A stretch of DNA of 36,837 bases. Origin: Rhodanobacter sp. GTDB taxonomy: Bacteria; Pseudomonadota; Gammaproteobacteria; Xanthomonadales; Rhodanobacteraceae. Positions 12,215-36,242 of this stretch are shown here, piece after piece. The notes beneath the pieces are model-generated. The model was not told where the DNA came from. It saw only the letters and a program-made list of their open reading frames with translations, and searched no databases. A program made the translations under genes and the position numbers. Position 1 is the stretch's first letter. Each line of letters opens with the position of its first letter. The stretch covers positions 1-36,837 of the forward strand of contig DZCM01000012.1 in the NCBI GenBank assembly GCA_022730295.1, in the 5' to 3' direction.

Positions 12215-12260
12215 CGCGTGATTATGCCGCATCACCTGCCCAACGCAGAACAAGCGCAGT

Positions 12261-12350
12261 CCGCAAATAAACGCCAATGAACGCGAATTGTGAAGCTGGT
12301 AATTCGCCAGCCTTTGCTTTCATTGGCGTATATTCGCGTTCATTTGCGGA
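12261..12350. repeat. Palindromic intergenic element with three CGCNAAT 7-mers on a 10-bp period in each arm
   Basis: Left CGCAAAT 12262, CGCCAAT 12272, CGCGAAT 12282; right ATTTGCG 12342, ATTCGCG 12332, ATTGGCG 12322; exact 2-fold axis at 12305. Confidence 0.9.
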
Positions 12351-13632
12351 CCACTTGCCTTTCGCGCACCAACCACAGGCCGATCAACAGCCCGAGCCAC
12401 GCCGGCAAGGCGAGCGCGATCCACGGCAGGTTGTGTTGCGGGAACCACGGCGTGAGCTTGGACAGCGATGCGAACAGGGACAGCAGCGCCATCAGCCCCG
12501 AAATGACCAATGCGAACGTGTGCGCGCGGGCGCCAGACTTGCGCAGGCGCCACAGTGCCGGGATCAGCAGCCATGCAAGCGGGTTGAACAGGAACAGATT
12601 TTCGTTGGCCCATGCGGCCCGGTGGGCGGTGGCGAACCACAGCACCAGCATCAGCACGCCGGCGAGGCCGGCCAACAGCGCGTACAGCGATCCGGCGACT
12701 GCGAACCACCAGCGTTCGATCGAGTAGCGATCGGCAAGCCGCGCGGAGGCAACGAAGCCGGTTCCCAGCAGCAGGCCCACGATCAACAAGGGCCACAGCA
12801 AATCAGGTGGCGATGCGGGCGGCGAGGGCAGGCGCTGCGGCGACAGCAGCGTTTCCGATTGCACCAGTGGCGCGCCGTCGCTCGCGCGGACCGTGCGCAG
12901 TTCCTGCATCAGCCGCGCGGGAATGAACGCACCGCTCCAACGCGTCAGCGGCTGGTCGGCATACGGGCCAAGGCCGAGGTCCAGCAGGTACATCAGCCAC
13001 GATTGCCCCGATATCAGGCGGTCGGTTTCGCTGCGGTAGGTTTCGCCGTGCGCGGCGGGGGCGGTCAGTTGCGGTTCCAGAGCGCCGCCCAGCGCCATGT
13101 TCAGGGCGTCGCGCACGCGCGTGGTGCAGTTGTCGGCGAAGTAGCGATAGCGATAGCGCGAGTTCCCGGGCTGCACGTTCCACACCAGAAAATCGCGCAG
13201 GGCCGCGCGTTGCGCGGGGGCGAGGTTCAAGCGCTGGTCGGTGATCGAACGGCCTTCACCTGCATATTCCTGGATGTCATCGGAGGTGGGCCAGGCCGCG
13301 GCGCGATAGATCATGATCCCGCGTGCGAAGTTGAGATAGAAATCCTTCTGGTCGAAGTCGAACATGCCGTAGTTGAAGGCATACGATTCGCCGCTTGCGG
13401 TGTCGGTGATCACCAGCGCGTCGTGGCCGAAGCGCTCCCAGTACACCTGGCCGGGTCCGTAGGTGTAGAGGTCGACCCGCAGGTTGGCGCCGGGCGCGTC
13501 GGCGACGCCGGCTTGTGCCAAGGGCGGCAGCAGCGCGCACAAGAACATGGCGAGCACCAACCATGCAGGCAGCAACGGGAAGCGGTGGCGTGGGGGCATC
13601 GGCGCGGCGGCGGCAGGGGCGTAGCCGCGCAT
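12340..13632 (-). CDS. DUF4105 domain-containing membrane protein
   Basis: 430 aa; DLYTYGPGQVYWERFGHDALVITDTASGESYAFNYGMFDFDQ...YRYFADNCTTRVRD plus C-terminal TM helices. The true start may be the ATG at 13599. Confidence 0.85.
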   Translation of the reverse strand: MRGYAPAAAAPMPPRHRFPLLPAWLVLAMFLCALLPPLAQAGVADAPGANLRVDLYTYGPGQVYWERFGHDALVITDTASGESYAFNYGMFDFDQKDFYLNFARGIMIYRAAAWPTSDDIQEYAGEGRSITDQRLNLAPAQRAALRDFLVWNVQPGNSRYRYRYFADNCTTRVRDALNMALGGALEPQLTAPAAHGETYRSETDRLISGQSWLMYLLDLGLGPYADQPLTRWSGAFIPARLMQELRTVRASDGAPLVQSETLLSPQRLPSPPASPPDLLWPLLIVGLLLGTGFVASARLADRYSIERWWFAVAGSLYALLAGLAGVLMLVLWFATAHRAAWANENLFLFNPLAWLLIPALWRLRKSGARAHTFALVISGLMALLSLFASLSKLTPWFPQHNLPWIALALPAWLGLLIGLWLVRERQVVRK

Positions 13633-14705: not shown

Positions 14706-15233
14706 TTATTTTAGCAAGATCGTGGCGTGTGTGTACGGCAGGCCGGTCGCGGGCATGGCCCGCTCCTGCATTTGGTAGGGATCGGCGATGCCGAGCGACA
14801 TCAGGATGCGCGTTTCCAGTGTTTCCATGCGCCGGGCATCGGCGTCGTTTTGGTGGTCGTAGCCAAGCAAATGCAAGGTGCCATGCACGGTCAGGTGGGC
14901 GTAGTGGTCGCGTACCATTTTGCCCTGTTCGCGCGCTTCACGCGCGACTACGGGAGCAGCGATCACGAGATCACCCAGAAGCGGCACGCTGATTTCTGGC
15001 GGGAGCTCGACCGGGAACGACAGCACATTGGTAGCGTAATCCTTGCCGCGGTATTGCCGGTTCAACGCGCGGCCTTCGCGGGCGCCGACGATGCGAATCG
15101 ACAATTCCGCGGGTTTGCGGTGGCGCGCGCCGGCGAGCGCAGCCTCCACCCAGCGACGGAAACTCCCGGCGGCGGGTACGCCGCGCCGCGGCGTGGCGAA
15201 CGACACACTCAAATCAGGCCGTGGAATCGCCAT
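14706..15233 (-). CDS. ybeY: rRNA maturation RNase YbeY
   Basis: NRQYRGKDYATNVLSFP and the metal motif HLTVHGTLHLLGYDH. Confidence 0.96.
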   Translation of the reverse strand: MAIPRPDLSVSFATPRRGVPAAGSFRRWVEAALAGARHRKPAELSIRIVGAREGRALNRQYRGKDYATNVLSFPVELPPEISVPLLGDLVIAAPVVAREAREQGKMVRDHYAHLTVHGTLHLLGYDHQNDADARRMETLETRILMSLGIADPYQMQERAMPATGLPYTHATILLK

Positions 15234-16200
15234 TGGCTTCCTCGGCCCTCTCGTACGCGCGCACGATTTTCGCCACCAGTGGATGCCGCACCACGTCGCG
15301 CGCGGTGAAGAAGGTAAAGCTGATGCCTTCCACGCCGCGCAGCACCTCGATCACGTTGCGCAAGCCCGAGCGCGTGTTGCGCGGCAGGTCGACTTGTGTC
15401 ACGTCGCCGGTGACGACCGTGGTGGTACCGAAGCCGATGCGGGTGAGGAACATCTTCATCTGCTCGACGGTGCTGTTTTGTGCCTCGTCCAGGATCACGA
15501 AAGAATCGTTGAGTGTGCGTCCGCGCATGTAGGCGAGCGGCGCCACTTCGATCACGCTGCGTTCGATCAGCCGCGCGACCTTGTCGAAGCCGAGCATTTC
15601 GTAGAGCGCGTCGTACAGCGGGCGCAGGTAGGGATCGACTTTCTGCGTCAGGTCGCCGGGCAGGAAGCCGAGTTTCTCGCCAGCCTCGACAGCAGGGCGC
15701 ACCAGGATCAAGCGTTGCACGCGCGCGGTTTCCAGCGCCTCCACGGCGCTCGCGACCGCAAGATAGGTCTTGCCGGTGCCGGCCGGGCCGATGCCGAAGT
15801 TGATGTCGTGGCGTGCGATGGCGTGCAGGTAATTCACCTGATTCGGCCCGCGCCCGCGAATGGTGCCGCGCTTGACCCTGATCGAAACTTCCTGTGCACC
15901 ATCGGTTGATTTTTCCGCGAGCGCATCGACGCCGGCTTCCGACAGACGGAGATTGAGCACGCGTCCGTTCAGGGTTTCGTGCTCGGTGGCGTCATATAAA
16001 TTGCGCAGCACGCGTTCGCCGGACTGCACTGCCGCATCCTCGCCGATCACGCGGAACACGTTGCCGCGATTATTGATCTCGACGCCAAGGCGCAGCTCGA
16101 TCTGGCGCAGGTGTTCATCGAATGGTCCGCACAGATTCGCCAGCCGCTGGGTGTCGTCGGGTTCAAGCGTAAAGTCGTGCTGGGTCAGCGAATCAGTCAT
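15214..16200 (-). CDS. ybeZ: PhoH-family ATPase
   Basis: MTDSLTQHDFTLEPDD...; Walker A GPAGTGKTYLAVA, FVILDEAQNSTVEQMKMFLTRIGFGTTTVVTGDVTQVDLP. Stop overlaps ybeY start. Confidence 0.95.
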   Translation of the reverse strand: MTDSLTQHDFTLEPDDTQRLANLCGPFDEHLRQIELRLGVEINNRGNVFRVIGEDAAVQSGERVLRNLYDATEHETLNGRVLNLRLSEAGVDALAEKSTDGAQEVSIRVKRGTIRGRGPNQVNYLHAIARHDINFGIGPAGTGKTYLAVASAVEALETARVQRLILVRPAVEAGEKLGFLPGDLTQKVDPYLRPLYDALYEMLGFDKVARLIERSVIEVAPLAYMRGRTLNDSFVILDEAQNSTVEQMKMFLTRIGFGTTTVVTGDVTQVDLPRNTRSGLRNVIEVLRGVEGISFTFFTARDVVRHPLVAKIVRAYERAEEANGDSTA

Positions 16201-16231
16201 CTGGAAAACTTGCGTGATGAAAGGAGCATTT

Positions 16232-16303
16232 ACCACGGATCAACACGGATACTCACGGATCAGGCCTGCTTTGGATCCGTGTTCATCCGTGCACATCCGT
16301 GGT
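16232..16303. repeat. Palindromic intergenic element with three CACGGAT 7-mers on a 10-bp period in each arm
   Basis: Left CACGGAT 16234, 16244, 16254; right ATCCGTG 16275, 16285, 16295; all three pairs share the axis at 16267.5. Confidence 0.93.
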
Positions 16304-16313
16304 CATCTTTGCT

Positions 16314-17732
16314 TCATGCTTTCTTGGTGGTAACACGCCCGCGCAGGGAGTTGGTCAGCGCGGCGGTGATGGTGACATCGACAAATTGCCCGCTGAGGTG
16401 TGGATCGCCGGCAAAATTCACCTGCCGCATGTTTTCGGTTTTGCCGGTCAGTTCGTGCGCATTTTTCTTTGACGGCCCGGTGACGAGCACGCGTTGCGTG
16501 GTTCCCACCATGCCCTCGCTGATCCGGGTGGCGTGGAAGTTGAGGACACGCTGCAGCGATGCCAGGCGTTCGTGCTTGACGTCATCCGGTGTGGGGTCGA
16601 TGAGGTTGGCGGCGGGCGTGCCTGGGCGCTTGGAATAGATGAACGAGAACGACTGGTCGAAGCCTACGTCCTCGATCAGCTGCATGGTCTGCGTGAAGTC
16701 GGCATCGGTTTCGCCGGGGAAGCCGACGATGAAATCCGAAGAGACGCAAATGTCCGGGCGCACAGCGCGCAGCTTGCGGATTTTCGATTTGTATTCAAGC
16801 GTGGTGTAGCCGCGTTTCATCATCGCCAGCACGCGGTCAGAACCTGATTGCACGGGCAGATGCAGGAAATTGGCCAGCTTGGGCACGTCGCGATAGGCGG
16901 CGATCAGTGAATCGGAGAATTCCAGCGGGTGCGAGGTGGTGAAGCGGATCCGGCCGATGCCGTCGATCTCGGCGATGGCGCGGATGAGCAGCGCGAGGTC
17001 GGCCATGCCGCCGTCGAACATCGGCCCGCGATACGCATTGACGTTTTGGCCGAGCAGGTTGACCTCTTTCACACCTTGTTCGGCCAATGACGCGACTTCG
17101 GCCAGCACGTCGTCGAAGGGCCGCGAGATTTCCTCGCCGCGGGTGTAGGGCACCACACAGAACGAGCAATATTTGCTGCAGCCTTCCATGATCGAGACGA
17201 AAGCCGCCGGGCCTTCGGCGCGTGGCTCGGGCAGACGGTCGAACTTCTCGATCTCCGGGAAGGAAATGTCGACCTGCGGCTTGCCGGTGGCGCGGCGCGC
17301 GTCGATCAGGTCAGGCAGGCGGTGCAGGGTTTGCGGACCGAACACCAGGTCGACATACGGCGCACGTTCGACGATCGCCGCGCCTTCCTGTGAGGCCACG
17401 CAACCGCCGACGCCAATCAACACCTCCGGATTCGCCTGCTTGAATTCCTTCCAGCGGCCGAGTTGCGAAAACACCTTGTCCTGCGCCTTCTCGCGGATCG
17501 AGCAGGTGTTGACCAGGATCACGCCGGCCTCGGCGATGTCGTTGGTGCGCTGCATGCCGCGTTCGGCCGCGAGCACTTCTTCCATTTTGCGGGAGTCGTA
17601 CTCGTTCATCTGGCAGCCGTGGGTCTGGATGAAGAGTTTTCCGGGCATGGATTTCCCGGACGTGGACTCGCCGCGGCGCGCGGCGCTGCCGGCCAGCTGC
17701 GCGGTGGGTGCGGGATTGGGCGTGTCGGCCAT
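16314..17732 (-). CDS. miaB: tRNA-2-methylthio-N6-dimethylallyladenosine synthase
   Basis: [16 protein letters not shown]; radical SAM motif [19 protein letters not shown]-terminal TRAM-like region. Confidence 0.97.
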
Positions 17733-17859
17733 GGCGGAGTCGTGCAGCGGAAACGACTGCGTATTGTAGCGGTGCCGGGGCCTTGCGGCTGTCGAGGGTG
17801 CCAGGAAGCGTGACGGCGGCGCTTGGTTTCCAGCGCTGGGCGCGGCACACTGCGAGCCC

Positions 17860-19002
17860 ATGGATGCCAGGTTCCGCCCCGGGTTTTTCTGCGACACGCG
17901 CCGCGCCGTGCGCGGCATCGCGGCGTGCCTGGCGCTGTTGTTGGCGTGCGTGGCGTTCCCGGCCGCTGCCAGCGTGCTGTATCGCTGCACCGGCACGGAC
18001 GGCGTGACGGCGTTCGTCAGCCACACGCATGGTTACAAGCATTGCGTGAAGGTGGGCGATTGGGAGGCGCCGGCGGCGCACCAGCGGCACGCGGACAAGC
18101 GCAACGACCAGCCGAGAGGCACGCTATTGCCGGGCCAACCGCCGCGGCCCGTCGCGGCGGATCCACGCGTGCTGAAAATCATTCCACTTGGCGAGCCGCC
18201 GCCGCCGGTGGCAGCGCCTGCGCCACCGCCGCCGCAAGCGTGGCAGCCTTTGCCAGTGGTGGCCATGCAGGCGTTCGCGAGCCGGATATTGCCGAAATTG
18301 TTGGGTGTGGAGTTGCCGCCGCCGTCGCCCGCCAGCACGACTGCGCCGGCCGCAGCATCGACCGCGCCGATTCCGCTGAAACTCGATGCCGATGTGGTCA
18401 AACCGCCGCGCCGCGGCGCGGTGTACCGCGTCGTCAAAAAGAACGGCACCGTACTGTATACCAACCTCGCGGCGCTTGCCGAAGGCCAGAACGCGACCAA
18501 ACTGTTCACCTACATCGTCGAGTGCTACGCCTGCGACGTGCATTCGAAGATCGACTGGAACACCGTGCCGCTGCACCTTGCCGAGTATCGCGGTGACATT
18601 GAGGCCGCGGCCAAGCTGAGTGGCGTCAACGTAGCGCTGTTGCGCGCGGTCATCCATGCCGAATCGGGCTTCAACCCGCGCGCCTTGTCGTACAAGGGCG
18701 CGCAAGGGCTGATGCAGTTGATGCCGGCGACGGCGGGCGAGCTGGGTGTGACTGATGCCTTCGATCCGGGCGAGAACATCGATGGTGGTGCGCGCTATCT
18801 TGCCGCGCTGTTGCACGATTACCACGGTGACGTGATGTTGGCGGCGGCAGCCTACAACGCCGGCGAGGGCGCAGTGGCAAAGTACGCCGGCGTGCCGCCG
18901 TATGCCGAGACGCAGGTTTACGTGAAGCGGGTGGCGCTGTTGTACGAGCGCTATCGTAAGGCGTTGGCAACCTATCCGAGCGTTGCCGCGGCGGGTGGCT
19001 GA
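17860..19002 (+). CDS. Lytic transglycosylase (SLT domain) with Pro-rich linker, secreted
   Basis: Signal peptide; SLT motifs [38 protein letters not shown] and [12 protein letters not shown]. Confidence 0.92.
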
Positions 19003-36130: not shown

Positions 36131-36242
36131 CACCCCCTTCGTACGAAGGGGGTCGATGCGAAGCATCGGGGGGATGTCGTGCAAACGAATGGACATCCCC
36201 CCGCGCCTGCGGCGCGACCGTCTTCCTCCGGACGGGGGTGGA
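36131..36242. repeat. REP/BIME-like mosaic element, copy D
   Basis: Left unit CACCCCCTTCGTACGAAGGGGGTCGATGCGAAGCATCGGGGGGATGT; inverted right unit ACATCCCCCCGCGCCTGCGGCGCGACCGTCTTCCTCCGGACGGGGGTGG. Confidence 0.9.

Follow-up and report, generated by a model that had tools for sequence, protein, structure and literature searches.

A palindrome of helically phased heptamers between miaB and phoH in Rhodanobacter, probably a gene-less copy of a GxxExxY-linked element

The palindrome, its operon junction and its copies

The window analysed here is a stretch of 36,837 nucleotides from a Rhodanobacter sp. genome (contig DZCM01000012.1 of assembly GCA_022730295.1; genome G000, 2.27 Mb in 110 contigs, 82% complete). 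Within an operon of this window, between the co-directional genes miaB and phoH, a 72-bp palindrome that carries no gene occupies a gap of about 113 bp, which runs from the miaB stop codon to the start of phoH (Table 1). The initial annotation had placed the site in the miaB-phoH run, and this is right. The palindrome comprises three CACGGAT heptamers at a 10-bp pitch, a centre of 14 nt and three ATCCGTG heptamers; all six heptamers are perfect and mirror one another about a common axis (16234 + 16301 = 16244 + 16291 = 16254 + 16281 = 32535), so the coordinates bear out the geometry that had been described, namely perfect 7-mers, 10-bp pitch and a single axis. The 3-nt spacers had been described as variable, and they do look random, but the strand on which they had been read does not hold: GAA and GTG appear when the right arm is read on the minus strand, and the plus-strand spacers are CAA and ACT on the left and TTC and CAC on the right. 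Searching the window for CACGGATN3CACGGAT with at most two mismatches gave five matches, all within this palindrome, against an expectation of 0.54, and five were reached in none of 100 shuffles.

Table 1. Coordinates of the miaB-phoH palindrome, its parts and neighbours, and of the second palindrome of the window
Feature	Position	Strand	Remarks
phoH, downstream gene	15214..16200	-	ATG at about 16200; start from alignment of relatives
Outer left flank	16220..16233	+	AAAGGAGCATTTAC; fits the element-end consensus
Left arm	16234..16260	+	CACGGAT-CAA-CACGGAT-ACT-CACGGAT; units 16234-16240, 16244-16250, 16254-16260
Centre (loop), 14 nt	16261..16274		Not conserved at orthologous sites
Right arm	16275..16301	-	ATCCGTG-TTC-ATCCGTG-CAC-ATCCGTG; left arm inverted; units start at 16275, 16285, 16295
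Outer right flank	16302..16315	-	GTCATCTTTGCTTC; mirrors the left flank; overlaps the miaB stop codon
miaB, upstream gene	16314..18026	-	ORF; C-terminus and stop confirmed by alignment of relatives; the listed start belongs to an over-long open frame
Second palindrome, CGCRAAT type	12258..12352		GTCCGCAAATAAACGCCAATGAACGCGAAT ... TTCATTGGCGTATATTCGCGTTCATTTGCGGAC; arms match GxxExxY elements of G008 and L310

The element-end consensus, taken from a logo of 109 arm flanks in the genus, is an A-run at -14 to -9 followed by TTT(T)R[AC] at -5 to -1. The phoH orthologues of the genus are 81-93% identical. As had been claimed, a second palindrome of like architecture but with another heptamer is present in the window; it lies at the 5' end of the region of a CorA-like magnesium-transporter ORF, and its gene-bearing counterpart is found between carA and carB in sister species (e.g. 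G008). That the two 7-mers differ thus stands; what had been missed, or lay beyond reading the sequence alone, is that CACGGAT and CGCRAAT correspond to the two GxxExxY arm types of the genus and that the window's pair represents two heptamer types of one GxxExxY-linked element family. A further dispersed inverted repeat at 36133-36237 (CCCCCTTC..GAAGGGGGTCG..CGGGGGGATG) resembles copies in L028.

Counted over the whole of G000, as had been proposed, the pair motif CACGGATN3CACGGAT has 30 exact matches, versus none for the reversed pattern. These make up about 15 palindromes with arms of two to four units and loops of 7 to about 240 nt, the loops being mutually unlike and the outer flank common. 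The idea of a dispersed intergenic repeat whose heptamers are kept while its spacers vary is thereby supported; copies elsewhere retain the 10-bp spacing, and they are intergenic and mostly between co-directional genes (strand calls being rough). Among 16 genomes of the genus, the three sister species G004, G008 and G011 hold 24-29 matches each (24 in G004, 25 in G011), G014 holds four, G007 and G013 one each, and nine hold none. The miaB-phoH palindrome is a member of this patchy set of dispersed intergenic palindromes.

The same patchiness is seen at the junction itself. In four relatives without a copy (G001, G005, G006, G010) miaB and phoH overlap by ATGA, with no gap, whereas in G000, G008 and G011 a CACGGAT palindrome fills the space between them, which makes the palindrome an addition to the operon junction. 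In G004, G009, G012 and G007, other palindromic repeats lie there, and the junction is a hot spot for small palindromic repeats. The inserts found at it elsewhere (L057 in G014, L058 in G004, L063 in G007, L065 in G009, L066 in G012) are of a CCCTCTCCC..GGGAGAGGG type and a GTCATTCCCGCG type, with a G+C-rich one in G014. Where orthologous sites of different species are compared, heptamer positions are 76% identical, a figure biased upward by the choice of copies and arm ends by motif, versus 42% for the spacers, and loops are mostly unalignable. Neither loops nor spacers are alike among the CACGGAT copies compared in the genus, so recent transposition is not evident in it. Filled and empty accC, carAB and miaB-phoH sites differ by precise intergenic gaps, in which no clear target-site duplication was recognised. 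In G004 (L180-L189), a single contig that is 99% complete, arms end in TTTAC-C and not, as in G000, in TTTGA.

GxxExxY genes inside arms of the same kind

Repeats of this kind presumably lie near GxxExxY genes, and the family was tested on that assumption. A search for PF13366 in 299 genomes of the phylum found 56 positive, and nearly all of 30 GxxExxY loci whose flanks were inspected lie inside inverted phased arms (e.g. CCGCAGAG, CCACGAAG, CCACAGAT). The count was then taken over 162 loci, 80 of them taken from a set of named genomes of bacteria and archaea; 154, spanning many phyla, have full flanks. A correctly oriented, phased CRCRRAK arm stands on at least one side in 103 of these 154 and on both sides in 63, versus two for the wrong-orientation control on both sides. 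The regular expression used misses other heptamers, ACAGGAT for example, which the unmatched loci often carry. GxxExxY genes flanked by this ACAGGAT heptamer (GACAGGATTNACAGGAT) include those of L267, L274, L276, L281 and L282. When arms were found independently of the motif, their spacing peaked at 10 bp, followed by 9 and 8 bp (161, 99 and 37 pairs), with at most seven pairs at 11-14 bp. A chance or mutational palindrome devoid of function, for which nothing specific speaks, is a negligible prospect in view of the 30 matches against an empty control, the sharp 8-10 bp phasing and the tie to one protein family over many phyla.

Within the genus, GxxExxY genes occur in G008 (two genes), G011, G013 and G014, that is, in four of the seven genomes that hold the repeat versus none of the nine that are free of it (p = 0.019). 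One GxxExxY gene, directly upstream of a biotin-carboxylase gene, has CACGGAT arms around it in G008, G011 and G014; another, between carA and carB in G008 and G013, has arms of CGCAAAT/CGCRAAG. Both junctions are empty in most other genomes of the genus, a few having other sequence there. Furthermore, gene and arms interlock: the GxxExxY frame of these elements opens at an ATG formed by the AT of a heptamer and the G of a spacer, and closes in the right arm. Over all loci, an in-frame ATG lies within the arm in 29 of 86 and the stop in 32 of 66. GxxExxY elements recur in distant genomes at trpD-trpC, at carA-carB and upstream of the biotin-carboxylase gene (L087, L090, L101, L110, L111; L146, L147, L262, L275, L310; L145, L148, L149, L233).

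Across the 299 genomes, 22 of the 30 with a three-unit array also have PF13366 (p = 4e-12); inside the single rich family p is 0.029, and since the genomes with both mostly belong to one family, part of this co-occurrence reflects common ancestry. Our searches found no GxxExxY gene in G000 (82% complete) and no PF13366 gene in G004 despite its 24 matches, and copies thus persist without the gene. The clearest sign of recent spread comes from another lineage: in G077 and in G240, copies of one longer element stand at different places with common loops and flanks, which suggests spread. These interspersed copies (L361, L362, L364, L365) are of about 200 bp and belong to one CACGAAT element.

Other partners and origins were considered. 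The IVP/four-helix proteins (PF05635) co-occur with the array (p = 0.0014), a relation unsupported by adjacency, since 30 control loci lack such flanking palindromes; the literature searches found no pairing of the 23S rRNA intervening-sequence protein with repeats. A phage or plasmid origin was rejected, since few GxxExxY relatives turned up in viral contigs (2) or plasmids (8 records), as was assignment to a defence system, for which there is nothing beyond weak PADLOC matches to Cas4-like models. The palindromes might instead be REP or REPIN repeats mobilised by RAYT (HuH, Y1_Tnp) transposases, which are likewise short, imperfect, extragenic and dispersed palindromes of related gammaproteobacteria, and Y1_Tnp genes are present in seven of the 16 genomes of the genus, including a weak match in G000. 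We regard this as very unlikely. First of all, presence does not match: G011 has 25 matches and no Y1_Tnp, whereas G005, G006 and G009 have Y1_Tnp and no repeat. Second, no heptamer arrays surround the five Y1_Tnp loci examined, with zero or one single unit per locus. Third, neither GTAG nor CGTC shows as a tag in the logo of the flanks where the arms end.

What recognises the arms

GxxExxY (PF13366, PDDEXK_3; TIGR04256, matched by 35 of 35 aligned members) is a protein of about 115 residues, in which E23, D62, E72-x-K74, H83 and Q86xxxY90 are invariant over 35 sequences. Its predicted structure has a pLDDT of 96, and the nearest PDB entries by Foldseek are Cas4 SSO0001 (4ic1), LHK-Exo, lambda exonuclease and Hjc; matches to PADLOC and other profiles are weak, to Cas4-like models and to reverse-transcriptase-associated PDDEXK. 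The model and the alignment together predict a PD-(D/E)XK nuclease fold with all catalytic positions kept, and GxxExxY would accordingly bind and cleave DNA. No solved structure or assay was found in our searches, and the literature reached, most subscription papers lying outside it, mentions GxxExxY in passing only, with no link to repeats.

The heptamers of the arms vary together with this protein. Left and right heptamers within an element agree at 0.88 over the four variable positions, versus 0.51 when re-paired (maximum 0.60), and the similarity of heptamers between elements rises from 0.38-0.42 below 45% protein identity to 0.92 above 80%. The Mantel correlation is 0.50, reached in 0 of 2000 permutations, host phylogeny being uncorrected; in the cross-phylum subset of 21 loci it is 0.25 (25 of 2000). 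Solo heptamers match the heptamer of the resident GxxExxY weakly across 20 genomes (0.61 versus 0.55; 101 of 3000 shuffles), in a comparison limited by incomplete genomes and by a search pattern that favours heptamers ending in -AT.

This co-variation weighs against the proposal that the palindromes belong to the host, as sites of a nucleoid or regulatory protein for instance, and that GxxExxY is a passenger inserting there, as some insertion sequences do into REPs. Such sites would account for the persistence of palindromes in G004 without the gene, for the better conservation of heptamers than of spacers at orthologous sites and for the conserved A-run and TTTR[AC] of the outer flanks. A passenger, on the other hand, would not be expected to have heptamers that diversify along with its protein, across phyla too; nor do the repeat-free genomes of the genus contain GxxExxY, and the gene's own start and stop are formed within the arms in the elements of the genus and at part of all loci. 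We consider host sites unlikely, although less so than the other alternatives.

A role in RNA has also to be weighed, as a terminator, an mRNA-stabilising hairpin or an attenuator of the miaB-phoH transcript. The gap is co-directional, and either strand is predicted to fold very stably (about -45 kcal/mol, z about -5.4). There is, however, no U-tract terminator, a single weak 5-pair site being the number expected by chance; gene-bearing relatives lie inside the carAB and trpDC operons, to which a terminator would be harmful; and no Rfam family scores above its gathering threshold. Changes in the heptamers are one-sided in 57 cases and matched on the opposite arm in two, and a search for compensatory base changes in heptamers found none, which favours recognition of sequence over maintained pairing. 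Finally, the strand with the non-T outer spacer on the left divides 4 versus 7 with respect to transcription, with no strand preference seen, and this independence fits a role in DNA rather than RNA. An RNA element is thus improbable as the primary explanation; a secondary effect of the palindrome on the mRNA is possible.

As to the form of DNA that may be recognised, complementarity between opposed spacers falls below expectation (0.243 versus 0.367, P = 0.0002 within genomes), so that on extrusion 7-bp stems would alternate with 3x3 internal loops. The pattern could reflect a hairpin that is recognised as such, or selection against long perfect palindromes. We favour a hairpin-forming DNA element that is recognised by the nuclease and exists in autonomous and non-autonomous copies.

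The proposed element and its relation to known systems

We thus read the miaB-phoH palindrome as a non-autonomous (or relic) copy of a GxxExxY element, similar to REPIN/RAYT but with a PD-(D/E)XK enzyme, and give this a probability of roughly 0.6; it is assigned to the non-autonomous or relic form because the copy itself lacks the gene. The association between arms and gene is seen directly in the sequences, and mobilisation by the nuclease is an inference. The family would be defined by inverted arms of CRCRRAK heptamers, about one per helical turn, and a complete element by one GxxExxY gene inside them. The nuclease would recognise arrays of its cognate heptamer, either in the double helix or in a hairpin or cruciform with 7-bp stems and 3x3 mismatches between them, and would process these arrays such that elements with the gene and elements without it are copied or inserted into intergenic gaps; the G077 and G240 copies, with their common loops and flanks, suggest spread, and the host may draw some benefit. 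This model is weakest with regard to G004, where copies persist in the absence of the gene, and to the lack of recognisable target duplications. More tentatively, at somewhat below even odds, we propose a class of mobile elements that extends over many bacterial phyla and into archaeal MAGs and whose enzyme is one minimal Cas4/Hjc-like nuclease instead of a transposase. This nuclease would recognise heptamer arms in helical phase, probably in hairpin or cruciform form, and would spread its own gene together with hundreds of gene-less palindromes, with a heptamer code for each nuclease lineage.

The closest parallel is REPIN/RAYT, or the REPtron (PMC3116915, PMC8266576, PMC3733652). In both systems, non-autonomous inverted repeats that can fold into hairpins and are scattered over extragenic DNA accompany less frequent copies linked to one enzyme gene, enzyme and repeat co-evolve, and the repeats lie between co-directional or convergent genes. 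The enzyme here, on the other hand, is predicted to be PD-(D/E)XK and Cas4/Hjc-like rather than a HuH tyrosine transposase, and its cleavage is conjectural; the arms consist of two to four heptamers at helical pitch instead of a single palindrome of 20-40 bp; and there is no GTAG/CGTC tag. With two defining features absent, the tag and the linkage to RAYT, we set these repeats apart. GxxExxY shares its predicted fold and the motifs E, D, ExK and QxxxY with Cas4, lambda exonuclease and Hjc; unlike Cas4, it is half the size, at 15-18% identity, and its gene lies by itself inside its own repeats, not in the company of CRISPR genes. The TAACTGA heptamer repeats of Beggiatoaceae (PMC4679880) are also intergenic tandem heptamers that occur in many phyla and are suspected of horizontal spread, but they form direct arrays of one invariant heptamer just upstream of start codons, and no nuclease gene is reported with them. 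Searches of the literature by heptamer strings, family accessions and REP terms, subscription papers not being covered, gave no description of the present repeats, and one search on such repeats returned RAYT-REP papers only. Provisionally, the GxxExxY-linked repeats thus appear to be a so far undescribed family of bacterial mobile repeats with a candidate enzyme of their own.

Palindromes of phased heptamers are frequent in the intergenic DNA examined, and the link drawn here gives them a candidate enzyme and gives GxxExxY, a family named after a motif, a candidate substrate, whose cognate DNA sequence can be read from the flanks of each gene. If it is true that the nuclease moves the repeats, they would represent a second REPtron-like solution, arrived at from the Cas4/Holliday-resolvase fold, and would bear on how Cas4-like nucleases became tied to short repeats.
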